Part shown: piece after piece, positions 1 through 18,534 of the stretch
How positions within the stretch are numbered: the first letter of the stretch is position 1
How the letters are laid out: every line of letters begins with the position of its first letter
Assembly (NCBI GenBank): GCA_934358955.1
Contig: CAKRLC010000053.1
Location: 1-18,678 of the forward strand
Length of the DNA: 18,678 nucleotides
From: an uncultured Roseburia sp.
GTDB taxonomy: Bacteria; Bacillota; Clostridia; Lachnospirales; Lachnospiraceae
Direction: 5' to 3'
Notes under the pieces: generated by a model
What the model was told of the DNA's origin: nothing
What the model saw: the letters and a program-made list of their open reading frames with translations, nothing else
The model's database searches: none
Made by a program: the position numbers and the translations under genes

Positions 1-131
1 AGCGTGGAAGCCTCTGCTGAACACGCTTCACGCTTTCAGAGGCTTATCGGAATGTTTGCACAATGAAACTTGCAATACTTTTTTGGCAATTTGACACCAT
101 AAACTATCATGCAGACTTTTTGACACCCGAA
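1..131. repeat. Palindromic fold-back repeat (MITE-like), copy 1, truncated by window edge
   Basis: This is one half of a long palindromic element that recurs at 6872-7101, 14343-14574 and 18568-18678. Its central part is the reverse complement of the centres of copies 2 and 3, so it is inserted in the opposite orientation. The visible end at 111-131 is a terminal repeat of the type GCAGACTTTTTGACACCCGA. The other arm lies outside the window. The terminal repeat overlaps the last codons of the signal peptidase gene (107-613). No transposase is encoded; a parent element elsewhere in the genome is an inference. Confidence 0.85.
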
Positions 132-613
132 ACTTTCTGCATAAAAATATCCGGCAATATATTAAGCAAGATAATAAAAAGAAGCAGTCCGCAGAGCATG
201 CACTTTCCAGCCGGTGTCCCTGCATACATGGAAAGATATCCTAATTTGGGAATGCTGCCATAGCATATGCCGACGATCTCATCAAAAGAAACTGCCGCAT
301 CCTCTGATTCGTTTGCATCGCCTTTTGTTATGACCAGCCGTAAAGCCGGATTTACGGAAAGAATCCGATGCGTCACATAGGTTTCATCTGAAACTTTATA
401 AGTAATGATCATCCCTTCCGTAAGCTTTTCTTCCTCAAATGGTGCATCAAACACCATTGCACCAACTCCGATCGACGGTTCCATGCTTCCGCTTAAAACG
501 GCATACTGCTGATACCCGAACAATTTTGGCACAAACAGTGCGATTGTAATGATAAGAAGCAAACAAAAAAGAAGCATCGACAGTGCATTACATATCTTTT
601 TTCCCATATCCAT
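107..613 (-). CDS. sipW: SipW-type (ER/archaeal-like) signal peptidase I
   Basis: Membrane-bound type I signal peptidase that removes signal peptides from exported proteins. Numbered from the ATG at 613, the protein has an N-terminal membrane helix (about 10-30), a catalytic serine in SGSMEP (Ser43), and the VTHRI motif with His82 where ordinary bacterial enzymes use lysine. That Ser/His arrangement, with TKGDANE (Asp99), defines the SipW/ER subfamily. A second membrane helix spans about 137-157. The length (168 aa) is a little short for SipW. ATG 613 overlaps the upstream TGA as TGATG, suggesting translational coupling. A GTG at 616 and an ATG at 607 (GGAG eight bases upstream) are alternatives. 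It is the last gene of the fibre operon, next to its probable TasA-like substrate. The last residues (KVSGVKKSA) are encoded by the end of repeat copy 1. Confidence 0.9.
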   Translation of the reverse strand: MDMGKKICNALSMLLFCLLLIITIALFVPKLFGYQQYAVLSGSMEPSIGVGAMVFDAPFEEEKLTEGMIITYKVSDETYVTHRILSVNPALRLVITKGDANESEDAAVSFDEIVGICYGSIPKLGYLSMYAGTPAGKCMLCGLLLFIILLNILPDIFMQKVSGVKKSA

Positions 614-1179
614 CACTCCGCCAGCTTTCCTGCATCATAGGCATTCCAGATCTGCTCTGCCACATCGCCCCGGTAGCTTCCATCCGCATTATATGCGCTC
701 AGCTTTTTTCCATCCTTTGTATATACAACAGCCTGGACAGACTCCTCTGAAACAGTGATCTCAAAATCTTCTGTCCATCCATCTGCGACCTTATAATGTT
801 CGAATAAATAATCTGTTGCATAAAAGGTATTCGTTTCTGCCGCTTTTAAAATTCCTTTGTAATACCAGAACTCTCCCTTTTTCTCCCAATGTTCCGTCTG
901 AAAATCTGTGATCTTAGCTGCATTTTCCGGAGAAATGGTCACCCGGACACGGACGAGGCAGTCATTTTTTCCTGTATTTACAATCCGCACCTGTTTTAAA
1001 TTCTGCGAGGGATCTGTATGCTCGTCGATTTCCGTCCGGATGCTTCCCGTCCGGAACGTATTTTTCACCTGTACGGAATTACTTTTTACATAGGCATAGG
1101 TTCCCGCCATCGAAGACATTAAGATCGTGATTCCAAGTGCGACCGTAAAAATGATTTTTTTTGATTTTGTAAGCTTCAT
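613..1179 (-). CDS. TasA/camelysin-like SipW-dependent secreted protein
   Basis: Probable extracellular fibre subunit processed by the adjacent SipW-type peptidase. The N-terminus has lysines, a hydrophobic stretch and the SipW-dependent signature ending GTYAYVKSNS, where cleavage would fall near residue 30. It is followed by NTFRTGSIRTEID and a segment (QVRIVNTGKNDCLVRVRVTI) typical of the TasA/CalY beta-sandwich, in which a 'variation from proteinaceous ends' phrase precedes a bVRVkV strand. The C-terminal half is less recognisable. I chose ATG 1179 (188 aa), preceded by AAAGGAG 11 nt upstream; an in-frame GTG at 1200 is possible. It starts 17 nt after the fibro-slime gene and overlaps sipW by TGATG, so the three genes are tightly coupled. 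The family assignment is by pattern; amyloid-type assembly is inferred from TasA homologues. Confidence 0.8.
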   Translation of the reverse strand: MKLTKSKKIIFTVALGITILMSSMAGTYAYVKSNSVQVKNTFRTGSIRTEIDEHTDPSQNLKQVRIVNTGKNDCLVRVRVTISPENAAKITDFQTEHWEKKGEFWYYKGILKAAETNTFYATDYLFEHYKVADGWTEDFEITVSEESVQAVVYTKDGKKLSAYNADGSYRGDVAEQIWNAYDAGKLAE

Positions 1180-1196
1180 TTTCTTCCACACTCCTT

Positions 1197-3596
1197 TCAC
1201 AATTTATTTGTCTGTATTTTTTCCGGATCAAAGCTATTCTCCTGCCCTGCCAGACGGTCTTTTTCCATAAACCAGCTTTGCCTGTCTGCATCATAATGAT
1301 ACCGGTTGATGACCATATCGGTATCTGAAAAATCATCCGCTTTCTTTTTCCGGTTAAAATACCAGACTGTGAAAAGCCCGCTTTCATCCGTCGTCAGTTT
1401 ATTTAATGCTATCTCTCGGAGCTGCGCATTATTTTGTTGTTTTATATCTGTTTCATAGCGGATCGCAGGCAGCTCTTTCACAACATAGGTTCCTTCTGGC
1501 AAAGAATCTATCTCATCCGTTAGCATCCCTTCTTTCTCATATCCGGTCTGGCTGCTTTCCGTAAAACGTACCGACCGATAATAGGTTGCTCCTGTCTCTT
1601 TGTTTGTGATCGCAAAGGTAAAGATCGGGTCTCCCTGGGAAAAATCTGCCCGGTCAATCTTTTTTGCAATACGCAGACGATAAGTTCTCTCCACATCCGT
1701 GATCACCGGCTGGATCGCCTGCGGATCCGGGATCACAAATTTCATATTGCAATTGGAATCTGCGCCACCTCGCTCCATATATAAAATCGTGATCGTATGC
1801 ATTTTTTCTGTGTCGGCTTCCTCCCCGACTGCCCTTAATGCCTCCCACAGGTCTACTTTGTCCGGCCAGACATCTGTGATCTTCTGCCTCTCTCCTGACG
1901 ATCCCGGATTTTTATAATTCGCATAGATCCAGTCTCCATTTTGCGTAAAATACCCATAGTCATTGTAAGGGTATGCGCTGTGCTCACCACCAAGATCTAA
2001 CACCAGCCTGCCATCCAAAAATACCCACAGGTCATCATCACCGCTGAACTGATATTCAAGTGGTCCGGTATAGTCTCCAAGCCGGAATGTAAAATCAAAC
2101 CGCATTCCAAAATATTCATTGTTTCCGCTTCCTTCCCGTTTCAGATGATTCAGCGGGAAAAATCCGTTTGTCGTATTGGCAGTCTGCGATACATCTGCAA
2201 CATAGTCCCTGATATGATCCAGCGTATACGTATATCCACTCTGCGCAAAATTTAATTCAAACCGGTTTGCATAGACTGTTTTTCCTGATTTTGCATCCGC
2301 AGAAAAAAATCCGGGTTCACTGTACTGAAAATCAACCTTTTCATAATGCTCTCCACTCAGCCCCTGTATGATGCCTGTCACAATCGGTCTGGTGTATGCC
2401 TGCGCCGATCCGTTATTCTGATAAGGTGTCAGATTCGTGTTATTCCTGTTCAAAAACACCTCTGTTCCATATTCCATTCCGGCTGATACCGACTTAAAAG
2501 ACTGCCAGTTTCCATTTGCATCATAATAACCTGCATTGGAATTAGTAACAGAAGCATTTCCCATGCTCATCCTTCCACGGCTGTCCGTACTGTCATAGTT
2601 ACCTGCATAGTTCACACTTCCCTGTTGGTATTGTCCATTTCTTCCAACCGTTCCAAGATCGTAATCAAACATTGTGACAGCCCGTGATGTCCAGCTGCCC
2701 TGTTTTTCCGCATAGATCACAGCGTAAATGGTGTCTCCTGTTACCATCACACCTTCCGCAAGTGCATTTCTTTCGTCCGTACTCTCCATGACGGTCTTCT
2801 CATCTACGCTTTGTCCGTTCCCTGTCAACCGGATCACTTTTGTGATCTCAAATGCTTTCTGATGTGCTTCACTGCCGACATCAAGTGAAAAAATCTGGTC
2901 TTCCGTCACCTGATAACTCTGCTGGCGGTACAGCTCCTCATATGTTGTCCCATTCCGGTACAGATGCCTTACTGTGATATCATACTCTGCTGCGGCTTCC
3001 TCCTCTTCTGTTGCTTCTGTTTCTTCTGTAGTTTCCGCTTCTTCCAACATTTCTGTTCCTGCGTTCTCCGGATCATCGGTCGCCGGCTCTTTTATCTCTG
3101 TATCCTTTCTTTCCGTATCTTCTGCTTTGTCCTCTTTCATTCCCGGCTCTTTTGTCTCTGTATCTGCGGGTTCCGTATTCTTAATCTCCGTATCTCCGGT
3201 TTCCGTATTTTTAATCTCTGTGTCTTCTGCTTCCGTATCTGTTATCTCCGGTTTCTTTGTCTCTGTCTCCTCTGTTTCCGTGCTTTCGGTTACTATACTG
3301 CTATTCTCATTTTTATCGTTCCTGTTCCCGGTATCCGCTGTTTCACCGGTATTTTCTTCTGTTTTTCCAGCCTCCTGACCACTTTCTGTTTCGTTCTTTT
3401 TTATCTCCTGTCCAAATGCCTCTGTTTCTGTCTTTTTTACATCAGCATCTGCACTTTCTTCCATAGAAGCGTTCTCTGCAGAAGCTATTTCCGTAGCTTC
3501 TGTTTCCGACGCACTCGTAACGATCATATCAGAGGCTGCCAGCACAATACACAGGAGCAGTGCGATCATTCTCTTCCTGATTTTTACCCTTTTCAT
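1197..3596 (-). CDS. Secreted fibro-slime (PA14-like) domain adhesin with Thr/Glu-rich stalk
   Basis: Large secreted surface protein (799 aa). A basic N-terminus and hydrophobic segment (MIALLLCIVLAAS) form a signal peptide. Residues about 30-205 are a low-complexity Thr/Glu/Asp/Lys-rich stalk with DTEIKNTE-type repeats. A short beta segment (YDITVRHLYRNGTTY) resembles MucBP-type domains. A fibro-slime/PA14-like lectin fold follows around 480-625, with FSGDDDLWVFLDG, LVLDLGGEHS and HTITILYMERGGADSN. A Cna-B/SpaA-like beta domain (RTYRLRIAKKID to YVVKELPA) lies at about 635-735. There is no LPXTG motif or C-terminal membrane helix, so anchoring is unclear. Start ATG 3596 is fixed by AGGAGG six bases upstream; an ATG at 3614 overlaps that site and is less likely. 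The gene overlaps the regulator gene by 68 nt. A matrix or adhesin role is inferred from domain type and the SipW context. Confidence 0.85.
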   Translation of the reverse strand: MKRVKIRKRMIALLLCIVLAASDMIVTSASETEATEIASAENASMEESADADVKKTETEAFGQEIKKNETESGQEAGKTEENTGETADTGNRNDKNENSSIVTESTETEETETKKPEITDTEAEDTEIKNTETGDTEIKNTEPADTETKEPGMKEDKAEDTERKDTEIKEPATDDPENAGTEMLEEAETTEETEATEEEEAAAEYDITVRHLYRNGTTYEELYRQQSYQVTEDQIFSLDVGSEAHQKAFEITKVIRLTGNGQSVDEKTVMESTDERNALAEGVMVTGDTIYAVIYAEKQGSWTSRAVTMFDYDLGTVGRNGQYQQGSVNYAGNYDSTDSRGRMSMGNASVTNSNAGYYDANGNWQSFKSVSAGMEYGTEVFLNRNNTNLTPYQNNGSAQAYTRPIVTGIIQGLSGEHYEKVDFQYSEPGFFSADAKSGKTVYANRFELNFAQSGYTYTLDHIRDYVADVSQTANTTNGFFPLNHLKREGSGNNEYFGMRFDFTFRLGDYTGPLEYQFSGDDDLWVFLDGRLVLDLGGEHSAYPYNDYGYFTQNGDWIYANYKNPGSSGERQKITDVWPDKVDLWEALRAVGEEADTEKMHTITILYMERGGADSNCNMKFVIPDPQAIQPVITDVERTYRLRIAKKIDRADFSQGDPIFTFAITNKETGATYYRSVRFTESSQTGYEKEGMLTDEIDSLPEGTYVVKELPAIRYETDIKQQNNAQLREIALNKLTTDESGLFTVWYFNRKKKADDFSDTDMVINRYHYDADRQSWFMEKDRLAGQENSFDPEKIQTNKL
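3080..3290 (-). repeat. Imperfect tandem repeats coding the Thr/Glu stalk
   Basis: Within the fibro-slime gene, short imperfect units encoding DTEIKNTETG, DTEIKNTEPA, DTETKEP, DTERK and DTEIKEP recur on the minus strand. On the plus strand they appear as pyrimidine-rich units such as TTCCGTATTTTTAATCTC. The stretch probably forms an extended stalk and could vary in length between strains. Confidence 0.6.
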
Positions 3597-4791
3597 TTTC
3601 TTCCTCCTCATCATTTAACTTTTCCAGATTTTTCCGGATGCGAAGCTGGCTATATTTTGCATTTTCCGCATAAAACCGGCGTACAATGCGCTCTGCTACC
3701 AGTTCCCCATCCTCACAGCTGCAGGAAAACAGCAGAATAACATATTGGGAACGGCTATATCTGGATACAACATCCCCCGTCCGAAGTGAGCCTTTGATCA
3801 CTTCTCCAAGGCGGTTCATTCCATTTTTTATCCGGAACTCATCTATCTGGCTCCACTTTCTGTGGCCGGAACCCGCTGGTTCCATTGTCAGTAACAGCAT
3901 CGCTTCTTTCTCCTGGAACCGGATTGCCTTTCGCATCTCCAAACGATAGATTTCCCGAAAAACCGGATATCCGCAGAAAAATACACCTTCCGTTTCCGTT
4001 TCTTCCATCGAAGCCTTTACTTTTCTCATCTTATCCGGCATATCCGATGCATTTGCCCGGATCAGTTTTTCATAAATTTCATCCAGTTTTGCTGTTTTGC
4101 TGATTCCAAGCTCTTCCTTTAACCGCAGCGTCCCTGTCTCATATGTTTCCATTGCGGATTTCCATTTCTCCTGTTTAAACTTTGCATAGATCAGATAATA
4201 ATATAGATCTTCTTCTGCCTCCCCTGTCTTTAAAACATGCCCGCAGAGCAGCTCTAACTTCGCATATGCCTCTGCCTCCACATATTTCCCAATCAATGCC
4301 CTGACACCGGATAAATACAAGGACTGATAATAGGCTGACCTGGCAACTACCCAGTAAAGTTCTGCCAGCTTTGGCAGAAATGTGCCTGTATAAGCTTCCA
4401 GCAGCTGCTCTAATGGTTCTGTTTCCTTCTCGGACAGCTTCTTCCACTTTGCATATCTTTTTTCAAAAATTTCAACATCCACCTGTACCTCAATTTCCGG
4501 ATTCCAGCGGTAGGAACCACGGTCTGATAAAATATATTTCTGTTTTCCAAAGTATTGTTCTAAGAGTCTTCTCAGTCTGTACATCAGGTTTTTCAATGCT
4601 CCGGCCGGATTTCCAACTTCTCCTTCCTGCCATACGGCATCCGCGATCTCATCCGGCATAATTGTCTGGTTTCTCCGAAGTATCAAATAGATCAGCAGAT
4701 TTGAGAGTCTTACAGAGTGGATATTATTATCATCTAAAACAGCGTCCCCCTGCCTGACCCGGAATCTGCCCAGCGTTTCTACTGTAAGCAT
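3529..4791 (-). CDS. BTAD/SARP-type transcriptional regulator with degenerate GGDEF-like C-terminal domain
   Basis: Probable DNA-binding regulator of the surrounding surface operon. Residues about 1-105 form an OmpR/PhoB-type winged helix as in SARP/AfsR proteins (LGRFRV, LLIYLILRRNQTIMPDEIADAVW, LKNLMYRLRRLL, YRWN). Residues about 105-247 match a bacterial transcriptional activator domain (VDVEIFEKRY, LLEAYTGTFLP, DLYYYLIYAKFKQEKW, LKEELGI). Residues about 270-385 follow the layout of a GGDEF domain (FREIYRLEMRKAI, AMLLLTMEP, LRTGDVVSRY, VILLFS, AERIVRRF), but the signature is SRSQY at 346-350 instead of GGDEF, so cyclase activity is very unlikely. The tail is acidic. GGAGG lies seven bases before ATG 4791. 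The 3' end overlaps the fibro-slime start. A ligand-sensing or dimerisation role for the C-terminal domain is inference. Confidence 0.85.
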   Translation of the reverse strand: MLTVETLGRFRVRQGDAVLDDNNIHSVRLSNLLIYLILRRNQTIMPDEIADAVWQEGEVGNPAGALKNLMYRLRRLLEQYFGKQKYILSDRGSYRWNPEIEVQVDVEIFEKRYAKWKKLSEKETEPLEQLLEAYTGTFLPKLAELYWVVARSAYYQSLYLSGVRALIGKYVEAEAYAKLELLCGHVLKTGEAEEDLYYYLIYAKFKQEKWKSAMETYETGTLRLKEELGISKTAKLDEIYEKLIRANASDMPDKMRKVKASMEETETEGVFFCGYPVFREIYRLEMRKAIRFQEKEAMLLLTMEPAGSGHRKWSQIDEFRIKNGMNRLGEVIKGSLRTGDVVSRYSRSQYVILLFSCSCEDGELVAERIVRRFYAENAKYSQLRIRKNLEKLNDEEEENEKGKNQEENDRTAPVYCAGSL

Positions 4792-4876
4792 ACGGCTTCC
4801 TCCATTTCATGCTTCCTGCCTCTGTACTATACGACTGTCTCCCTTTATTTCCCGTCGAAAATTGCAGCCGGCATTT

Positions 4877-5329
4877 TTATTTTTTCATTATGGCTTTCTT
4901 TGCATCATGGATTCTCGCATAATCCAAAACATATTCCGTATTTCTCTTTATCTTTTTCGTTACGATCCCATCTTCATCGGAAAGCTTTTTTACCTGGTAA
5001 ACCGGTTTTTTCTCTGCATCAGTCTTTAAAATCCTGACATTCTTTTTCAGCCAGCTGTAAAATGTACTGTCATCCTTCCAGATCTCTCCGACTGTCTCCG
5101 CCACCGTTTTCCCCTTTTCCACAGTGATCTTTATATAGCTTCCATCTGTTTCGACACGGTCATCTTCTTCAAAATCGTCTGTATCAAATTCCCCTGCATT
5201 TCCTGCCCGGAATGTAACCGTATATTCCTTCGGCTTTTCCGCTGCTTTCAGACTGACCGCCGGCATCAGCCCAACGATCAGTAACATTACCGCAATAATT
5301 TTACAATTTCCGATTTTTGCTGTTTTCAT
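4877..5329 (-). CDS. Small secreted protein of the fibre operon, function unknown
   Basis: I do not recognise a named family. The 150-residue product has an N-terminal signal peptide (IIAVMLLIVGLMPAVSLKAA, cleavage likely near residue 30). The remaining 120 residues are charged and start with a beta-type segment (YTVTFRAGNAGEF) faintly like an InlB-type B-repeat or small beta-grasp module. The distal part (VRILKTDAEKKPVYQVKKL) contains no cysteine. The start at 5329 has AGAGGG five bases upstream. It overlaps the preceding gene by 29 nt, which places it in the same transcript. An 85-nt gap separates it from the regulator gene, the largest gap inside the operon. It is presumably an accessory extracellular component; this rests on context only. 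Confidence 0.75.
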   Translation of the reverse strand: MKTAKIGNCKIIAVMLLIVGLMPAVSLKAAEKPKEYTVTFRAGNAGEFDTDDFEEDDRVETDGSYIKITVEKGKTVAETVGEIWKDDSTFYSWLKKNVRILKTDAEKKPVYQVKKLSDEDGIVTKKIKRNTEYVLDYARIHDAKKAIMKK

Positions 5330-6119
5330 AGATTCCCTCTGCTTTCTTTTTTCGTTCCAAATGATTCCTTACAATTCCAATGGTGAAAAGAACCGTTCCT
5401 GCAAACATAAAAACAAGCACTGCCGGCTCTGATACATCCCCTGTTTTTACTGCTTTTACAATCGATTGGATTTTACCAGGATTCTGTCCGTCCGCTGTTT
5501 TCGGCGTTTTGCTTCCCGGCACGATCACAGGGCGGTCATTTTCCTCATAATAGGCCAGAAACTGAAATGCCAATTCGCCATCTGCATTGGAATAATCGAT
5601 TCCATTTGCACTGTCCATACCTTCGCCGTCTAAGGTCAGCGTCAGATACAGATTCGTATCTTCTCCAGGTGCAAGCTCTGCAACATATTGGAACTGGTTC
5701 AGCTGCGTTATATCAGAAAGACCGGTTGTACTTGCTTCCAGATTTTCAGTATACCCACCTGCTACTGTATCCAAAATATTTTTTGCGCTTTCTTCTGTTT
5801 TTCCGACCGTGATCTCATATTCATATGCCCCGCCTGCTGATTTATTTTTTTCTTCGAGAATATCGGTTGTTTCCTGTGACAGATAAAAAGCTGCTTTATG
5901 ATGGTTCTTATTTTCCAGGCAAAGTGCAACCGTCCTTGTATCTCCCGGTGCCATTCCGGTCCATGCCGTCTTTAGCGTTTCCCCCTGCTCTGAAAAAAGA
6001 AGTTCATTTTCTTCTGTCAGCGTTACCTTTTCCGCTGTTGCCGCATAGGTGTCTGCTCCAAAGGCAAGTATTGCTGCAAGAACTATTCCGGATACATACA
6101 TTTTCTTTTTCATCCTCAC
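5301..6119 (-). CDS. Secreted, C-terminally membrane-anchored protein with sorting-signal-like tail
   Basis: The 272-residue product has a signal peptide (YVSGIVLAAILAFGADTYAA). Its ectodomain holds WTGMAPGDTRTVALCLENKN, YLSQETTDILEE and a repeated pattern around LAPGEDTNLYLTLTLDGEGMDSANGIDYSNADG. This is the layout of surface proteins I associate with TasA/SipW loci in Lachnospiraceae. The C-terminus reads AVKTGD, a hydrophobic helix (VLVFMFAGTVLFTIGIV) and a basic tail, like a cell-wall sorting signal, but a canonical LPXTG is absent and no sortase is in the window. Start GTG 6119 is preferred because AAGGAGG lies seven bases upstream; ATG 6113 is the alternative. It starts 12 nt after the preceding gene. 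It may anchor the fibre to the cell; this is an inference. Confidence 0.8.
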   Translation of the reverse strand: MRMKKKMYVSGIVLAAILAFGADTYAATAEKVTLTEENELLFSEQGETLKTAWTGMAPGDTRTVALCLENKNHHKAAFYLSQETTDILEEKNKSAGGAYEYEITVGKTEESAKNILDTVAGGYTENLEASTTGLSDITQLNQFQYVAELAPGEDTNLYLTLTLDGEGMDSANGIDYSNADGELAFQFLAYYEENDRPVIVPGSKTPKTADGQNPGKIQSIVKAVKTGDVSEPAVLVFMFAGTVLFTIGIVRNHLERKKKAEGIYENSKNRKL

Positions 6120-6131
6120 TCGCTTCCCTCC

Positions 6132-6809
6132 TTATCGTTTTTCTGAAATTGCTGTGATCGTTCCATCTTCCCCAATGGCCGCAAAAACGCCAAATTCCGC
6201 TGCGATCGCATCTCTTGCATGATTTGCCTGCACTGCTGTCACCTGATACTCTAACCGGTATTCTGCATCCGCATAGTCTTTTCCCATAGCTTTTCCAAAT
6301 GCGATCCCCGACAAAAACTCGGTTGTTGCCTGCCCCGGCTTAACCGGTCTGGTATAATATAAAATTATCTGTTCACTGTCCGCATACTGCACGATCCAGT
6401 CATTCACAACTTCATTCTGCCGCGCCATGGCAAGGTCCGTCTTCTTTCCGGATGCATCCTGTATGTACAGGATATCTGCTGCTCCTGTTTCCGGATAAAG
6501 TGCTTCTCCATCTTTTTCCCATTCTTTGTAAAGTACCACCTTCACATAAACATCATATCCGTCTGTGACCATGTTCACGACTTCCTTTGGCAGCTTATAC
6601 TCTGTTCCCGGTACCACTGCTTTCTTTGATCCGTCTTTGCCGCCAAATGGATCCTGATCCTCGTAAATCGTTACCCCGACGCTCCGTATACGGATATCCG
6701 CTGTTGCTGCTTCTCTACCCTTTACATTTGATGCCACGATCGTCCCTCCGGCCATTGCAACTGCTGTAAGAATCCCGGCAGCCATCACAAGCAAATATTT
6801 CTTTTTCAT
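6132..6809 (-). CDS. TasA/camelysin-like SipW-dependent secreted protein, first gene of fibre operon
   Basis: Probable fibre subunit or assembly partner (225 aa). The signal segment YLLVMAAGILTAVAMAGGTIVA is followed by a TasA/CalY-like fold. Recognisable pieces are YDVYVKVVLYKEW (the conserved VkV strand with a following tryptophan), QIILYYTRPVKPGQATTEFLSGIAF (the 'yYy..pl.pGe.t..lfsgv.f' block) and YRLEYQVTAVQANHARDAIAAEFG (the 'tA.AVQA...da....w' block). Start ATG 6809 has GGAGGAG five bases upstream; the in-frame ATG at 6824 lacks one. The gene follows repeat copy 2 and a candidate SARP-type promoter at 7123-7156. It and the gene at 613-1179 would be two different substrates for the single SipW at the operon end. 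A named family (TasA or CalY) cannot be fixed by eye. Confidence 0.8.
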   Translation of the reverse strand: MKKKYLLVMAAGILTAVAMAGGTIVASNVKGREAATADIRIRSVGVTIYEDQDPFGGKDGSKKAVVPGTEYKLPKEVVNMVTDGYDVYVKVVLYKEWEKDGEALYPETGAADILYIQDASGKKTDLAMARQNEVVNDWIVQYADSEQIILYYTRPVKPGQATTEFLSGIAFGKAMGKDYADAEYRLEYQVTAVQANHARDAIAAEFGVFAAIGEDGTITAISEKR

Positions 6810-6871
6810 TACGGCTCCTCCCATTTTTTGTTCCTGCTATCTTATTTTTTATCTAACCGTATTCTTATGAC

Positions 6872-7101
6872 TCGGTTGTCAATAAGTCTGCCTTTTATTT
6901 TTAAGGTGTCAAATTGCACAAAAAAATATTACAAGTTTCATTGTGCAAACATTCCGATAAGCCTCTGAAAACGTGAAGCGTGTTCAGCAGCGGCTTCCAC
7001 GCTTCATGAGTCTTATCTCCATTGCACAAAGAGAAACTTTCCATATTTCTTTTGTGAAATTTGACAATAAAAGTTATGGATCAGACTTTTGGGCACCCGA
7101 A
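6872..7101. repeat. Palindromic fold-back repeat (MITE-like), copy 2
   Basis: About 230 bp with two pairing arms and a nested central hairpin (GATAAG...CTTATC, TGAAGCGTG...CACGCTTCA). The left end reads TCGGTTGTCAATAAGTCTG; the reverse complement of the right end reads TCGGGTGCCCAAAAGTCTG. About 120 bp of core differ from copy 3 at only three positions. No convincing target duplication remains. The element lies between the metF terminator and the fibre operon, starting 62 bp before the first gene. Confidence 0.85.
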
Positions 7102-7122
7102 TCTTTGTATCACATTTTCTAA

Positions 7123-7156
7123 ATTATAAAAAAGAACAGTCACACCAACGTCACAC
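7123..7156 (-). promoter_or_regulatory. Candidate SARP-type promoter: 11-bp-period direct repeat next to a consensus -10
   Basis: On the minus strand the heptamer GTGTGAC occurs at 7156-7150 and again at 7145-7139, a period of exactly 11 bp. Ten bases later comes a perfect TATAAT (7128-7123). No good -35 hexamer is present. Established Streptomyces SARP sites are direct heptamers with an 11-bp period about 8 bp upstream of the -10. Because the operon encodes a BTAD/SARP regulator (3529-4791), autoregulation is a plausible inference. Transcription from here would cross repeat copy 2 before the first gene. Confidence 0.5.
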
Positions 7157-7191
7157 CGCAAGAAAGAACATCAAAAGGAGCATATTTTTCT

Positions 7192-7227
7192 GCAAAACAA
7201 AGAGGAGCTGTCTAACAGCTCCTCTTT
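7192..7227 (-). terminator. Rho-independent terminator after metF
   Basis: A perfect 12-bp stem (AAAGAGGAGCTG at 7199-7210 pairing with 7216-7227) has a five-base loop. On the minus strand it is followed by GTTTTGC, a short T-tract. It lies 26 bp beyond the metF stop and separates the metF transcript from the fibre operon. Confidence 0.85.
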
Positions 7228-7253
7228 GCTTCCGTTCTTTATTTTATTTGGTT

Positions 7254-8123
7254 TTATTTCCGGACATAAATATGGGAAAGATTCTGAAGGATTTCTCCTG
7301 CAACATCCGGTTTGTTCATTGTATAAATATGTACGTGATTCACACCATTTGCAATAAGATCAATGATCTGCTCGGTGGCATATGCGATTCCCGCCTGTCG
7401 CATGGCTTCCGGGTTGTCTCCGAAACGATCTACGATCGCTAAAAATCTCGGCGGCACCATATTTCCGGAAAGTGACACGATACGTTTGATCTGATTTGCA
7501 TTTGTAACCGGCATGATTCCAGCAACAATCGGAACATCAATTCCTTTTTTTAATGCTTTGTACATGAAATTATATAAAATATTATTATCAAAAAACATCT
7601 GTGTCGTCAAAAACTCACAGCCAGCATCTACCTTTTCTTTCAGATGATCCAGATCTTCAAAGATCGTAGATGCCTCCGGATGTCCTTCCGGATAGCATGC
7701 ACCGCCAATACAGAAGTCTCCCTGCTCCTTAATCTCTGCGATCAGCTCACTGGCATGTTTATACTGATTTGGCAGTGGAAAATCTGCGTTTGCCGGGATA
7801 TCTCCACGGAGTGCCAGAATATTTTCAATCTGATTTGCTTTTAACTCTTCAATCACGGACGCAACCTTTTCTTTTGTAGATGATGCACAGGTCAGATGTG
7901 CCAGTGCCGGAATCCCGTTCTGGTTCACTTCTTTTGCAAGCTCTACTGTATAATCAGAGGTTCCTCCGGTCGCGCCATAGGTCACACTCATATAAGCAGG
8001 CTTTAACTCTGCCATATCTTTTACAACCTTTTTATAATTTTCCAGCTGCGCTCCCTGCTTTGGTGGGAACAGTTCGCAGGAAATGGTTACATCATCTTTG
8101 TTTAATAATTCTGTTAATCTCAT
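7254..8123 (-). CDS. metF: 5,10-methylenetetrahydrofolate reductase
   Basis: Flavin-dependent reduction of 5,10-methylene-THF to 5-methyl-THF, supplying methyl groups for methionine synthesis or, in acetogens, the methyl branch of the Wood-Ljungdahl pathway. The 289-residue protein has the usual single-domain bacterial length. It carries ISCELFPPK with the catalytic Glu, SVTYGATGG, the folate/flavin-binding ILALRGDIP, TTQMFFDN, PIVAGIMPV and HIYTMN near the C-terminus. Start ATG 8123 is chosen because GAGG lies six bases upstream; the ATG at 8138 has no such site. It is the last of three co-directional genes (RACo-like, greA, metF), 67 nt after greA, and is closed by a terminator. The neighbouring corrinoid activator suggests that the methyl-THF feeds a corrinoid-dependent methyltransferase, which is an inference. 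Confidence 0.95.
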   Translation of the reverse strand: MRLTELLNKDDVTISCELFPPKQGAQLENYKKVVKDMAELKPAYMSVTYGATGGTSDYTVELAKEVNQNGIPALAHLTCASSTKEKVASVIEELKANQIENILALRGDIPANADFPLPNQYKHASELIAEIKEQGDFCIGGACYPEGHPEASTIFEDLDHLKEKVDAGCEFLTTQMFFDNNILYNFMYKALKKGIDVPIVAGIMPVTNANQIKRIVSLSGNMVPPRFLAIVDRFGDNPEAMRQAGIAYATEQIIDLIANGVNHVHIYTMNKPDVAGEILQNLSHIYVRK

Positions 8124-8190
8124 TTTTTCCTCTTTCATCCGGACTTTTCATCATCCGCCTTTTCCTGTTTTTCATTCTTTGCTGCTGTCC

Positions 8191-8694
8191 TCAGAAGCTT
8201 CTGATCTTGTCTGATCCGTCATCTACCGTATTCTCGATTTTGCGTATCTGCACATAATAGGAATATTGATCGTTTACTTTTACTTCACAGCGCTCACCAA
8301 CCTTATGTCCTAACAGTGCTTTTCCAAGCGGCGATTCATTACTGATGAGGTTTTTCAGGGAATTCCCACGGATCGTTGTCACGATTTTATATACTTCTTC
8401 CTCATCATCCTCTTCAAAATAAACGGTTACCGTATTATTCATTCCCACTTCATCTTCTGCGGAATCCGTTGAAATAATCTTTGCTGTCCGGATCATCTTC
8501 TCCAGATACCGGATCCTGCTCTCGTTCTGGTTCTTGTCCTTTTTGGCTGCATGATATTCAAAGTTCTCACTCAGATCCCCATGCGCTCTTGCCTCTTTGA
8601 CTGCTTCCAGTGCATTTTTCCGAACAACCAGCTTACGGTATTCGATTTCTTCTTCCATTTTTTTGATATCCTGTTCGGTCAATTCATCATACAT
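8191..8694 (-). CDS. greA: Transcription elongation factor GreA
   Basis: Binds the RNA polymerase secondary channel and stimulates cleavage of backtracked transcripts. The 167-residue protein has the expected two domains. The N-terminal coiled-coil (about 1-77) carries the tip motif ARAHGDLSENFEYHAAKKDK with acidic residues Asp40 and Glu43. The C-terminal globular FKBP-like domain includes ISNESPLGKALLGHKVGE. Start ATG 8694 has GAGG eight bases upstream. It lies between the RACo-like gene (76-nt gap) and metF (67-nt gap). The gap upstream of greA is A/T-rich and could hold its own promoter, but no pair of hexamers was convincing. The C-terminus (VDDGSDKIRSF) extends slightly past the usual end. 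Confidence 0.95.
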   Translation of the reverse strand: MYDELTEQDIKKMEEEIEYRKLVVRKNALEAVKEARAHGDLSENFEYHAAKKDKNQNESRIRYLEKMIRTAKIISTDSAEDEVGMNNTVTVYFEEDDEEEVYKIVTTIRGNSLKNLISNESPLGKALLGHKVGERCEVKVNDQYSYYVQIRKIENTVDDGSDKIRSF

Positions 8695-14314: not shown

Positions 14315-14342
14315 GATTCATTCCTCCAATTTTCTATGAAGC

Positions 14343-14574
14343 TTCGGGTGTCAAAAGGTCTACATCTTAGTTTTTAATGACAACTTGCACAAAAGAAATA
14401 TTGCAAGTTTCATTGTGCAAAACATTCCGATAAGCCTCTGAAAGCGTGAAGCGTGTTCAGCAGAGGCTTCCACGCTTCATGAGTCTTATCTCCATTGCAC
14501 AAAGAGAAACTTTCCATATTTCTTTTGTGCAATTTGCCAATAAAGGTTACGGAGTAGACCTTTTGACACCCGAA
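14343..14574. mobile_element. Palindromic fold-back element (MITE-like), copy 3, with target-site duplication
   Basis: A 232-bp element with perfect 21-bp terminal inverted repeats (14343-14363 and 14554-14574, starting TTCGGGTGTCAAAAGG). The arms pair over most of their length, and a central nested hairpin is present. The direct repeat TTCTATGAAG flanks it at 14332-14341 and 14575-14584, as expected for a 10-bp target duplication; one extra C (14342) sits on the left. There is no open reading frame of note, so movement would need a transposase encoded elsewhere. The parent family is unidentified. It sits between the helicase terminator and the ABC operon. Confidence 0.88.
14364..14392 (-). 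promoter_or_regulatory. Candidate outward promoter within repeat copy 3
   Basis: Minus-strand TTGTGC (14392-14387), a 17-bp spacer and TAAGAT (14369-14364). Both hexamers are imperfect. Support comes from position: only 28 bp lie between the element and GTG 14314, and a strong terminator lies directly on the other side, so a promoter inside the element is likely. The same spacing recurs in copy 4. Confidence 0.4.
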
Positions 14575-14584
14575 TTCTATGAAG

Positions 14585-14633
14585 TAAAAAAGGACTGCGC
14601 AAGCATCCAGACCTGAATGCTTGCGCAGTCCTT
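14585..14633 (-). terminator. Rho-independent terminator after the helicase gene
   Basis: A perfect 17-bp stem (14590-14606 with 14617-14633) has a ten-base loop. On the minus strand it is followed by TTTTTA (14590-14585). A pyrimidine-rich tract on the other side may make it work in both directions. It lies about 75 bp beyond the helicase stop; the intervening A/T-rich bases (14634-14708) show nothing else. Confidence 0.95.
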
Positions 14634-14708
14634 CTTCCTTTTAAAAAGATTATCAGGAAATTGTGATAAAAAATGGAGAAAATTGTGATAACTCTGTGAA
14701 ACCCCATC

Positions 14709-17700
14709 TCACACTTTTTCATTCATAAATTGTAAATAAGTATCGATCACTTCTGCTTCACTGTCTGATGCAATAAAATAATAATCGATCACATCCGTTC
14801 CCATCACCGATACATACGGCCCGTACATTGGAATATTACAGCAGAGTACATCTCCATCCGCTGCAACTGCAATTCCATATCCCAGGCTGGAATGAATATA
14901 TGGTAAACGCTTTGTTTTATTTCCATAACAAATATATTTGGCCGTATTTCTAAGCGGGAGCCTGTCATCCTTTAAAATGCCCTTCGCAGAAAGCCGTTCT
15001 TCTCTCGTCCAGTCAAAATAATTCCAAACCTGTCCCCTTGCCTGATCAATCTGTCGTGGCATATTTTTCTTTTCAGCAAGTAGCTTTTTCCCTGTTCTAT
15101 CAAAAAAGGTGATCGCACCACTCGCTTTCTCGATCTCCGCAGAAATCCTCGCTGTCCGGATCCGGATTTTATCCCGCTCTTCCTGAAATCCAAATGTCTG
15201 TTTTACATCCTTTTCTTCTGCCAGCTTCTGGATCTTTGCTACCGGTCCGAATGTCACACGAAGAATTTCTTCGCTGATCGGCCGAACATGGAGCATTCCA
15301 CAGGCACTGACACAGGTTACCGCATTTTTCTGCTTTTCTACCCAGCGGATCGAAGTGTCTGCTTTCCCTTGCCCAATCGGTCTAAGCACTCCATTGTCAG
15401 GGATTTCCCCAAACCGGTGTAAAGCCCCTTTGCCCGATAGAAAACAAACCTTTTCATCGGCAAATTTCGCCGTCGTCTTTGGCAGTGTTTTTTGTATTTT
15501 ATCTGGCTTTTGTATTCTATCCGCTACTTGTGTTTTATCCGGCTTTCGTATGATGTCAGGCTTTTGTGTTTTATCCGGTCTTTGTTTGATATCAGGTTTT
15601 CGTAATGCATCCGGCTTGCGTATAATATCTGGTTTTTGTAGTGCTTCCGGTCTTTGTTTGATATCTGGCTTTTGTGTTGCATCTGGTCTTTGTATGACAT
15701 CAGGTTTCTTTTTTTGCAACACGTTTGGACTCTTTTTCTCCGTCCGCCTGTTCACTGGTTTCTTTTCTTCCCTGAAAAGCTTCTGGGCCTGCTCCGGCAC
15801 AGGTGCTGCGATCACAGGTGTCAGATTATCCAGATAACACACTGCCAGTTCATGCAAGGCTCTGGTCGCTGCGACGTAAAGAAGCTTTACATGCGCATCG
15901 TCTAACGGATATTTCTTACCATCCGGGTTCCAGAGAATGACTGCATCAAATTCCAGACCTTTTGTATAAGCTACAGAAAGAACCATCACGCCTGTTCCAA
16001 AAGACATATCCTTTGTCTTTTCCCCTACAAGCATTGCCTGTTTTCCAAGCTTTTTTGCTACCTTCTTTGCTTCCTTATCATCACGGCATACAATGGCAAT
16101 CGTCTCAAACGCTTCCTGTTTCCAACGTTCGATTCTTTCTTTTACCGCAGCAAGCAACTCCTCTTCCCCGTCATAATGTTCCATGGAAACTTCTTTTCCA
16201 TGACGGATGATCGGTTCTACCGGATACACTGGAAAACTTCCATGCCGCAATATTTGCATAGCAAAATTACTGATCTCAATCGTATTACGATAGCTTTTCT
16301 TTAACAGCAAAAATTCATCATAAGGGCCGGTGAGCATCTGCCTTCTTAACATCTCCCAGTCGTTTAATCCATATCCGTAATAAATATTCTGGGACACATC
16401 TCCCATTATCGTAAAGGTGCAGCCACGCATACAATACTTTAAAACACTGTATGCCATCATTCCAAAATCCTGCGCTTCATCGATAACGACATGGCTTGCT
16501 TCCCTTATCGGATCCGTTTCTTTTACACGCTTATACAAATACGCAAGAGCCGCCAGATCATACACATCATACTCTGTTTCCGGCACCGTCACCGGGTATC
16601 CGCGGAGACGCTGTTCTTCCATGAATTCTGTATACATCAGAAAAATCGATTTTTTCCATTCTTTTCCGCCAAAATAATAACGATAGGTTCGAAGGATCTC
16701 CCGTTTTTCTTCTGCTGTATAAGCAATATCCTTTCCGATGATCTCATTTTGGATTTTTGCAGCAAGACGTTCATTGAGCATTGCAATCTTACTTTGGATC
16801 GATGTCTGGGGATTCTCCCGGATATATTCTGAAATATCTGATCCTTTTAACAGGCAAATCCCTGTCTTTTCCTGTCTGGATGGGATTTCCAGATAAATAT
16901 CGTCCCAAGCGATCACCTCAGTTTCTGCTTTTTTGCAATATTCTTCCAGATTCTGAAACCAAAACAGGCTTCCCTTGACCGGCAAAACCTGATCTGTTTT
17001 ATCCAGTTTTCGCACAGACATTGTCTGGTTGTCCCAGTCTTCATACAAAAGACGCACAAATAACTGCTCCATCGTCATCTGTCTGACACCGTAAACATCC
17101 AGATCCGGAAGCACCCCTGTAATGTAATTTAATAAAACCCGGTTACTTCCTATGATATAAAAATCTTCCGGTCGAAATTCTTTTTCATAATTATAAAGAA
17201 TATAAGAAATGCGATGCATCGCCACCGTTGTTTTTCCGGAACCGGCTCCGCCCTGCACGATCACATTCTGTCTTGGAGACTTCCGGATGATCGCATTCTG
17301 TTCCTGTTGGATCGTCGCAATAATCTCTCCAAGGACTGCTTTTTTATTTTTGGCCAGATATTTTGTCAAAAGCTCATCATTGGCTACAACATCGGAATCA
17401 TAGTAATCCTTTAATTCATCTTTCTCAATCTCATAGGTTCTTTTTCTGCGAAGATCGATCTCATAATTTTTTTCATTTTTGACAGAATAGCTGCATGCCC
17501 CAATCTTATTTTCATAATAAACCGATGCAACCGGAGCTCTCCAGTCGATGACAACCTTTTCTAAAATATCCTTCGAAATGCCGACTCTTCCAATATACAG
17601 AGCTTCTTCCTGTTTTGTATCCCGGTCAAAAAAATCAATCCTGCCAAAGTAAGGCTTCTTTCTTGCCTTTTCGCAACGTTCGCGGTCTCGCTTTGTCTCT

Positions 17701-17909
17701 TCGTAAATAACCTGTGTATTATGAAGCATTGTCAATGCTTCTGTATCCTTTGGGCCATATGTTTCCATCAGATCATAAATATCCTCGGCAAGCTTTTTTT
17801 CCTGTTCCCTGTTCTTCTTCAGATTCTGTTCTGCAACTTCAATGACTTGTCCTAAATGTTGTTCTTCCTCTTTTCGCGTTATTCCCGGAAGTTTCTTTTT
17901 CTGTTCCAT
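14709..17909 (-). CDS. HelD-type helicase fused to a GH31 N-terminal-like beta-sandwich domain
   Basis: Residues about 1-705 are a complete HelD (UvrD-like SF1 ATPase that remodels or recycles RNA polymerase). There is a charged N-terminal coiled-coil (about 1-85), then YFGRIDF and DWRAPVASVYYE, Walker A GGAGSGKTT (about 219-227), Walker B VVIDEAQD (about 472-479), MGDVSQNIYYGYG, SYRNTIEISNFA, YTKGLEFDAVI and LLYVAATRALHELAV. Residues 735-806 are twelve six-residue repeats (KPDIIQ/RPDKTQ type). Residues about 815-1066 match the N-terminal domain of GH31 glycosidases: AVTCVSACGMLHVRPISEEI LRVTFGP, then IRTARISAEIEKASGAITFF, LRNTAKYICYG, SSLGYGIAV and DVIDYYFIASDSEAEVIDTY. The protein stops just where the catalytic barrel would begin. 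AAAGGA lies eight bases before ATG 17909. It follows the HAD gene by 25 nt. HelD is certain; the GH31 call is by pattern, and its role is unknown. Confidence 0.9.
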   Translation of the reverse strand: MEQKKKLPGITRKEEEQHLGQVIEVAEQNLKKNREQEKKLAEDIYDLMETYGPKDTEALTMLHNTQVIYEETKRDRERCEKARKKPYFGRIDFFDRDTKQEEALYIGRVGISKDILEKVVIDWRAPVASVYYENKIGACSYSVKNEKNYEIDLRRKRTYEIEKDELKDYYDSDVVANDELLTKYLAKNKKAVLGEIIATIQQEQNAIIRKSPRQNVIVQGGAGSGKTTVAMHRISYILYNYEKEFRPEDFYIIGSNRVLLNYITGVLPDLDVYGVRQMTMEQLFVRLLYEDWDNQTMSVRKLDKTDQVLPVKGSLFWFQNLEEYCKKAETEVIAWDDIYLEIPSRQEKTGICLLKGSDISEYIRENPQTSIQSKIAMLNERLAAKIQNEIIGKDIAYTAEEKREILRTYRYYFGGKEWKKSIFLMYTEFMEEQRLRGYPVTVPETEYDVYDLAALAYLYKRVKETDPIREASHVVIDEAQDFGMMAYSVLKYCMRGCTFTIMGDVSQNIYYGYGLNDWEMLRRQMLTGPYDEFLLLKKSYRNTIEISNFAMQILRHGSFPVYPVEPIIRHGKEVSMEHYDGEEELLAAVKERIERWKQEAFETIAIVCRDDKEAKKVAKKLGKQAMLVGEKTKDMSFGTGVMVLSVAYTKGLEFDAVILWNPDGKKYPLDDAHVKLLYVAATRALHELAVCYLDNLTPVIAAPVPEQAQKLFREEKKPVNRRTEKKSPNVLQKKKPDVIQRPDATQKPDIKQRPEALQKPDIIRKPDALRKPDIKQRPDKTQKPDIIRKPDKTQVADRIQKPDKIQKTLPKTTAKFADEKVCFLSGKGALHRFGEIPDNGVLRPIGQGKADTSIRWVEKQKNAVTCVSACGMLHVRPISEEILRVTFGPVAKIQKLAEEKDVKQTFGFQEERDKIRIRTARISAEIEKASGAITFFDRTGKKLLAEKKNMPRQIDQARGQVWNYFDWTREERLSAKGILKDDRLPLRNTAKYICYGNKTKRLPYIHSSLGYGIAVAADGDVLCCNIPMYGPYVSVMGTDVIDYYFIASDSEAEVIDTYLQFMNEKV
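15492..15707 (-). repeat. Twelve 18-bp tandem units encoding the KPD-repeat linker
   Basis: 216 bp of imperfect 18-bp units, for example TTGTATGACATCAGGTTT on the plus strand. On the minus strand they encode KPDVIQ, RPDATQ, KPDIKQ, RPEALQ, KPDIIR, KPDALR, KPDIKQ, RPDKTQ, KPDIIR, KPDKTQ, VADRIQ and KPDKIQ. The proline every six residues argues for an extended flexible linker between the helicase and the C-terminal domain. Confidence 0.93.
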
Positions 17910-17934: not shown

Positions 17935-18534
17935 TTAACAGATTTTTTTCAGATCCGCTTTTGCCTGATCGATACTATGGAACCAGATTCCGTGAATTCC
18001 TTCTTTTTCAGCAGCTAAGACGTTCTGCTCCGTATCGTCAAAAAATACACATTCCTCAGGCTTCAGCTGATACTTGTCTAAAAGCATATGATAAATTTCC
18101 GGCTCCGGTTTTATTTTCTTCACCGTATAAGAAAAAATACCTCCGTCTGTCAATGGCAGAAAATCCAATGTCTTATCACAAGTCTGCTGATAGCTCCATG
18201 CTCCATAATTGGATAAAATATATACTTTTTTTCCTTCTGCTTTCAGTTCCCGGATCCAGTCTTTGGTATAGTCGAACTGTACCAGCGCAAGATTTATATT
18301 TTCCCAGAATAATTTAATTTCTTTTTCATATGCAGGTTCTTTTTCACAAAATGCAGCCAGTAATTCCTCATCCGACATCACTCCTCTGTCTGCTTCTCCC
18401 CAAAGTGGTGTATTTACTGTTGCATCTGAAACCTTTTGCATGGTTTTCTCATCAAAACCAAGCTTACGCATTGCTTCCTGTGGATTCCATGTAACTAATA
18501 CCCGTCCAACATCCAAAATAACGTTCTTTATCAT
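17935..18534 (-). CDS. HAD-superfamily phosphatase (subfamily IA, YihX-like)
   Basis: Cytoplasmic phosphatase of the haloacid dehalogenase superfamily, 199 aa, the normal length for a single-domain enzyme with a helical C1 cap. Motif I is VILDVGRVLVTWNP, with the nucleophile Asp8; the second acidic residue of DxD is replaced by Gly. That substitution is also typical of the YihX group (FDLGNVLV), which dephosphorylates sugar phosphates. Motif II is YILSNYG (Ser near 108), the motif III lysine is in KKIKPEPEIY (about 138-147), and motif IV is CVFFDDTEQN (about 159-168). ATG 18534 has GGAG seven bases upstream. It is the first gene of a two-gene unit with the HelD fusion, 25 nt apart, directly downstream of repeat copy 4. 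The substrate cannot be named; a sugar phosphate is a guess from the family. Confidence 0.9.
   Translation of the reverse strand: MIKNVILDVGRVLVTWNPQEAMRKLGFDEKTMQKVSDATVNTPLWGEADRGVMSDEELLAAFCEKEPAYEKEIKLFWENINLALVQFDYTKDWIRELKAEGKKVYILSNYGAWSYQQTCDKTLDFLPLTDGGIFSYTVKKIKPEPEIYHMLLDKYQLKPEECVFFDDTEQNVLAAEKEGIHGIWFHSIDQAKADLKKIC

Follow-up and report, generated by a model that had tools for sequence, protein, structure and literature searches.

Does the window analysed here, namely the whole stretch of 18,678 nucleotides of DNA from an uncultured Roseburia sp., hold a genuine gene in which a HelD motor continues into a portion of a glycosidase, and, if so, what could such a portion contribute to a protein studied for its roles in polymerase recycling and rifampicin tolerance (passages of PMC7749167 and PMC12802891)? 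The gene in question is organized as follows:

14709..17909, minus strand: the whole fusion gene, encoding HelD, a linker and a GH31 N-terminal-like domain (1066 aa), as reflected in the ORF and in relatives of the same architecture
15795..17909, minus strand: the HelD motor (residues 1-705), as reflected in Pfam, NCBIfam and PDB matches, invariant columns and modeled helices
15456..15773, minus strand: the linker (residues 713-818), rich in K, R, P and D, as reflected in pLDDT values below 50, tandem repeats and the linkers of relatives
14712..15455, minus strand: the GH31 N-terminal-type beta-sandwich (residues 819-1066), as reflected in fold and sequence comparison

Examination of residues 1-705 revealed matches to Pfam, NCBIfam and PDB sequences, in agreement with the claim of an earlier note on this DNA that the ORF encodes a full-length HelD of about 705 residues. 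Pfam UvrD families scored above their cut-offs in this part of the protein, while the NCBIfam HelD_BACSU equivalog cut-off (419 bits) was missed (334.7 bits; E=9e-100), such that the protein is, in sequence terms, a HelD relative and not an equivalog by this model. A DWRAP motif is found at residues 122-126, with D122, W123, R124 and P126 being invariant in a 39-row alignment of fused and unfused HelDs, and the Walker A (GGAGSGKTT, residues 220-228) and DEAQ (residues 477-480) motifs are nearly all invariant in the same 39 rows. The structure model predicts an N-terminal helical hairpin formed by helices at residues 12-50 and 56-84; such a hairpin is described as the secondary channel arm of HelD in parts of PMC8655204 and PMC7749167. 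In the relevant section of PMC8655204, class I HelD is defined by a DWR[A/S]P motif and by the lack of the class III insertion, and the window HelD presents this motif without that insertion, together with SF1 ATPase motifs and the hairpin. It appears to be of the class I type, and as such may bind and recycle polymerase.

Comparison with the class I HelD of B. subtilis (PDB 6wvk and other entries of the same sequence) revealed the SF1-like motor, the hairpin, DWRAP, Walker A and DEAQ to be common to both. In the B. subtilis protein, the 2A head (residues 610-774, according to a passage of PMC7749167) is the last part, whereas the window protein adds the linker and the GH31 N-type domain. In that source, portions of which also describe Gre factors as secondary-channel binders, HelD is described as occupying the downstream face of RNA polymerase and as inserting two arms into the channels of that enzyme, with the 2A head being C-terminal. 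The window also contains, at 8191-8694, the transcription elongation factor GreA.

Residues 819-1066 constitute a separate domain. By itself, Pfam PF13802 returned 22.4 bits for this domain, under its cut-off of 27; fold and sequence checks bore out the earlier assignment of a GH31 N-terminal domain fold. In terms of GH31 membership, the N-terminal beta-sandwich is present and the (beta/alpha)8 barrel (PF01055) with the catalytic acids is absent, the ORF stopping at the border between the two. No barrel Pfam matched the fusion protein at E<=10, and the protein therefore contains no catalytic residues. Likewise, no barrel remnant was seen by eye downstream, at 14315-14760, in the three frames of the gene's strand. 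The end of the frame is thus a clean one at the barrel border and not a random truncation, as had been proposed, and the architecture recurs in relatives. Residues G871, R884, K928, E946, E971, G977, Y992, S1007, Y1011 and D1042 are conserved in fused and GH31 domains alike, with the sandwich and core residues being shared with the GH31 enzymes BoGH31 (5jou), MeXyl31 (5zn6), CjXyl31A (2xvg), XacXyl31 (7kmp) and Listeria lmo2446 (5i0d).

By contrast to these enzymes, the fused protein presents no barrel, no C-terminal beta domains, none of the GH31-conserved N-domain motifs and not the 35-residue segment common to most of the GH31 N-domains compared. Positions that vary little or not at all in the nearest GH31 enzymes, and that differ in the fused domains, cluster in the Y-G-L-G-Q stretch (974-978), in HQAN (994-997) and at the exit to the barrel (1059-1062). 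The motifs G[LFM]GQ and Q[AGH]N occur in 0/34 fused domains, as opposed to 11/12 GH31 N-domains; when looser versions were recounted on profile match columns, with a wider GH31 set and insert residues dropped, they were found in 15 and 12 of 23 GH31s and again in none of the 34 fused domains. The notion that the lost motifs had faced an active site was dropped, since the XacXyl31 passage of PMC8245568 does not bear it out. There, the N-domain of this GH31 alpha-xylosidase, named DUF4968, is said to lie outside the active site interface, with PA14 being the sole accessory domain within it. Given this placement, the loss of the two motifs may, by analogy, reflect only the loss of packing against the barrel. 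The E946-E971 segment spans 24-29 residues in 34/34 fused domains, as compared to 60-62 residues in 10/12 GH31 N-domains and 34 and 47 residues in the other two. In front of the sandwich, a fusion-specific stretch, FGxxP...L, is found at residues 833-842, with FGx[ILVMC][PV] at 833-837 appearing in 28/34 fused rows and in 0/12 GH31 cut-outs. In one subclade (L042, L043, L046, L047, L053 and L055), the protein stops immediately behind the IDYF-type strand and lacks the last helix, which is therefore dispensable.

The fused domain is, moreover, basic, whereas the GH31 N-domain is acidic. On profile match columns, net charge, a crude proxy, had a median of +7 in the 34 fused rows (0 to +13) and of -8 in 23 GH31 rows (-15 to +4), a difference that represents one event, because all fused domains share one ancestor, and that the nominal p-value overstates. 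A smaller set yielded +8 for the fused domains and -6 for GH31. The 34-versus-23 count left out the partial GH31 matches L109, L113, L116, L117 and L119, while the GH31 protein of locus L001, matching at 9.5 bits only, was included in the domain tree and the motif count and left out of both charge counts.

The repeat linker claimed between HelD and the C-terminal domain was also found, as degenerate 18-bp tandem repeats within 15489-15718 and as pLDDT values below 50 over residues 713-818 of the full-length AlphaFold model; the linker is predicted to be disordered. In relatives, linkers are 56-165 residues long and carry a net charge of 0 or above in 30/31 cases, as compared to the HelD part, which is negative in 31/31. 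The AlphaFold pTM, 0.56 for the whole protein and 0.90 for the domain alone, weakly suggests that the domain has no fixed docking on HelD. A short motif of the GPKRI/GPKPI type is present in 15/31 linkers that otherwise vary in sequence (L001, L032-L036, L038, L040-L043, L046, L047, L053 and L055) and absent from that of the window; this is possibly a linear binding motif.

The origin of the fusion was considered in two unrooted trees. In the tree built from the HelD part by maximum likelihood (52 rows, with the unfused ones being the closest from the family search and more distant unfused HelDs being left out), 38 fused and 14 unfused rows were split by a branch with 100/99 support, with no domain-less row on the fused branch. 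Nearest to that branch are five unfused HelDs, one of which (L074) is encoded in G359, a genome that also contains a fused HelD (L061). In the domain tree, 34 fused domains and 12 GH31 N-domains were similarly split (100/100 support), with L087-L089 having, among the GH31 rows, the shortest branches close to the split. Because HelD without the domain is widely present, a single gain is favored over loss, and the domain would have descended, most likely once, from the N-domain of an alpha-xylosidase-like GH31 enzyme. An adjacent GH31 gene as the state preceding fusion was also considered and rejected: barrel queries matched 1/48 HelD loci, namely L001, where the GH31 gene is a separate one. In this Agathobacter MAG, about 5.4 kb separate the intact gene (L001 16110-18380) from the fused HelD upstream of it, and its product is no close relative of the fused domain.

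The reading that we prefer, with a probability of about 0.55, is that a class I HelD gained a GH31 N-terminal sandwich, most likely once, and that this sandwich was exapted as a non-catalytic arm that binds an acidic partner. An ancestral Lachnospiraceae HelD of the class I type would have acquired at its C-terminus the sandwich alone, with no catalytic barrel, and with the fusion then being inherited under purifying selection. Tethered to the HelD head by some 56-165 residues, the basic domain would contact either nucleic acid on its way out of the opened polymerase or an acidic surface on the polymerase or on HelD itself, and such contact would help hold, place or regulate the recycling motor. 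We infer that the domain was exapted as an arm that binds macromolecules and has no catalytic function; the partner is the least certain part of the explanation. Were this so, what was once a GH31 N-domain would serve, in a Lachnospiraceae HelD subclass, as a tethered basic arm in contact with RNA polymerase or released nucleic acid and would alter recycling, perhaps replacing in cis the delta subunit, described in part of PMC7749167 as absent in, for example, Clostridia; this fuller version is offered tentatively, at rather below even odds.

It is possible, although on the whole unlikely, that the domain instead serves as a protein scaffold with no role at nucleic acid or polymerase, recruiting some other client to the motor, be it a protein involved in repair or replication or a further HelD. 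In BoGH31, GH31 domains pack extensively on the barrel (passage of PMC4967831), such that the barrel-facing side of the N-domain could have offered a ready protein interface, and the conservation of F833, G834, P837 and C1024 in 94% of the fused rows and not in GH31 is in keeping with such a role. No co-occurring neighbor gene, however, points to a client. No conserved gene neighborhood was found at the fusion loci beyond groups of two to four loci, to which fixed offsets were confined, and the largest neighbor family, ABC-transporter-like, occurs at 8 loci at scattered offsets.

While the observation made in the earlier note was confirmed and its first interpretation was supported in part, the sugar-sensing link that it drew was not. 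According to this improbable explanation, the sandwich binds a glycan, a sugar or a sugar phosphate and so tunes polymerase recycling to the carbon supply. Many Lachnospiraceae use plant glycans, and the domain's descent from the N-domain of an alpha-xylosidase-like GH31 would fit such a role. A residue of an N-domain can, moreover, line a substrate site, as does Tyr99 of LlGH31_u1, which acts on the adjacent protomer (passage of PMC9061262). Yet the GH31 catalytic site is located in the barrel, as stated in sections of PMC4967831, PMC9061262 and PMC8245568, and the barrel is missing here. Given that location, and given the XacXyl31 N-domain lying outside the active site interface, the ancestral N-domain, by analogy, probably did not bind sugar on its own. 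The loss of motifs and the reversed sign of the charge likewise speak against a sugar sensor, as does the lack of a conserved sugar gene nearby, with a GH31 barrel being found near only 1/48 HelD loci searched (L001, 5.4 kb away). The partner gene named in the earlier note lies upstream:

17935..18534, minus strand: an HAD-IA family hydrolase gene (199 aa), as reflected in the ORF and in family models

The HAD protein passes the general HAD models PF00702 and TIGR01509; among the matches listed (25 of 33), no substrate-named model was passed, with the glucose-1-phosphatase model yielding 53 of 295 bits. No HAD relative was detected (phmmer E<=1e-3, ORFs of at least 80 aa) at 34 other fusion loci (L001 and L032-L064, from 33 genomes, some cut by contig ends). 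The HAD gene is, judging from these comparisons, a neighbor and no conserved partner; its earlier casting as a sugar-phosphate partner was not borne out, and a sugar-phosphate link through it was rejected.

To describe the distribution of the architecture, 397 genomes from the family of G001 were searched with the domain profile; this set corresponds to Lachnospiraceae because G001 is an Agathobacter MAG. Matches at E<=1e-5 were obtained in 55/397 genomes, 33 of them strong (E<=1.8e-26), such that the same combination of HelD and C-terminal domain indeed exists in other Lachnospiraceae (33/397 genomes). In 30 of the 33, a single ORF of 1001-1133 residues encodes a full-length HelD and the domain; as for the remaining three, the frame is broken in the linker in G150 and cut by contig ends in G049 and G007. 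Weaker matches were mostly found in frames 670-860 residues long, apart from frames of 506 (G162) and 133 residues (G116), and a GH31 barrel was detected by Pfam in 5/5 scanned GH31 proteins (four weak matches and the separate L001 gene). HelD was found at E<=1e-60 in 89/397 genomes, with the fusion present in 32 of these 89. At the order level, the domain was found in 11/392 genomes, with frame lengths of 1016-1092 residues, and five of these genomes also belong to the family set. Among 391 Clostridia genomes at the class level (E<=1e-20), where groups were sampled and at most six candidates were scored per genome, the fusion was seen in G001 alone; the other matches at this threshold came from four genomes, in frames of about 800 aa that resemble GH31. 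Protein clusters yielded 257 matches at E<=0.001, with all 120 among the matches listed bearing helicase Pfam domains. No relative was found in the viral contigs searched, and a two-pattern scan of genome contigs, an insensitive one, returned one relative in 67 stretches. Named carriers are an uncultured Agathobacter (L001), Roseburia inulinivorans (P0042) and a 'Lachnospiraceae bacterium' (P0126).

The prospect that the domain is a passenger, retained without function after a chance fusion, appears remote. That the domain can be cut off is seen in G150 (L051), where HelD (5282-7531) and the domain (7419-8390) lie in overlapping ORFs in different frames, and in the database relatives P0155 and P0174, which look frame-shifted. 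In addition, the domain is less constrained than HelD: its dN/dS was 0.08-0.39 in seven pairs of relatives, as compared to 0.03-0.18 for HelD in six non-saturated pairs, several dS values exceeding 1.5 and thus being unreliable, and was up to about five times that of HelD within one pair. Similarly, identity to the window protein was 24-37% for the domain (31 rows) and 53-63% for the fused HelDs. With such low dN/dS, the domain is kept by selection, albeit less tightly than the motor. Also against a passenger are the absence of domain loss on the fused branch of the HelD tree, the retention of the fold residues and the presence of the fusion in 33 genomes across wide divergence. In a search for a standalone domain, strong matches all fell within HelD ORFs, except for G150, G007 and the domain half of G049; 56 short proteins appear in the database, and of the eight examined, some begin within HelD, in a linker-like stretch or at the domain itself, and others seem to be frame-shifted. 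The 133-residue frame of G116, corresponding to half an N-domain, was rejected as a standalone domain, being instead a broken GH31 gene (L119, about 481-1322) with the start of a GH31 N-domain and a partial barrel in different frames and the middle missing. G116 also contains an unfused HelD. In G150, the linker holds an A6 run near the change in frame, and programmed frameshifting was considered as a candidate cause in this single genome.

An assembly or annotation artefact having joined two genes can be dismissed with near certainty, as no point in its support was found and as the identical fusion occurs in 33 genomes and frames of 1017-1080 residues occur in six further, order-level genomes, five of these frames also containing the HelD end motif and the sixth genome being without a locus.

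Is such a protein already known? The earlier statement that no link between HelD and a carbohydrate-enzyme domain had been described holds in part: the pairing is visible in databases, whereas the identity of the module as GH31-derived was not found described. In their methods, Newing et al. (2020) report having drawn HelD-like sequences also from categories named 'DUF4968 domain-containing protein', with 74 and 37 hits (PMC7749167), a methods sentence to which the term DUF4968 is confined in the available main text. The relative P0126 is named 'DUF4968 domain-containing protein, partial' by NCBI, thus falling in the same category, and DUF4968 is the name given to the XacXyl31 N-domain; the proteins of Newing et al. 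are probably the same as the fusion considered here. A 2021 HelD phylogeny, in the portion available (PMC8655204), ascribes variation in HelD length to the arms and makes no mention of glyco-, sandwich, fusion or C-terminal extension. Nothing on such a domain was found in the accessible parts of a 2022 review (PMC10719064) or a 2026 paper on rifampicin sensing (PMC12802891), nor was a GH31-derived, single-origin, altered module found described in the portions of the HelD literature searched. In a gut-commensal clade that includes Roseburia inulinivorans, the motor comprises a third part, whose fold is known and whose origin can be traced. The database label 'DUF4968' on such HelD proteins also gains a meaning. 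The fusion also offers a clean example of an enzyme domain that was retained for another use minus its catalytic partner.

Elsewhere in the window, ORFs at 107-6824 resemble, by eye, a SipW-type signal peptidase, TasA/camelysin-like surface proteins and a BTAD-type regulator; among the four ORFs scanned, a Pfam match was obtained for the regulator only. Two inverted repeats lie beyond the end of the fusion gene:

14587..14636, no strand assigned: an inverted repeat with 24-nt arms directly downstream of the fusion gene
14343-14411 and 14506-14574: an inverted repeat with 69-nt arms, 84% complementary and 94 nt apart

The first is terminator-like in appearance. The second, found between the fusion gene and an ABC transporter gene, is perhaps a small mobile or REP-like element.
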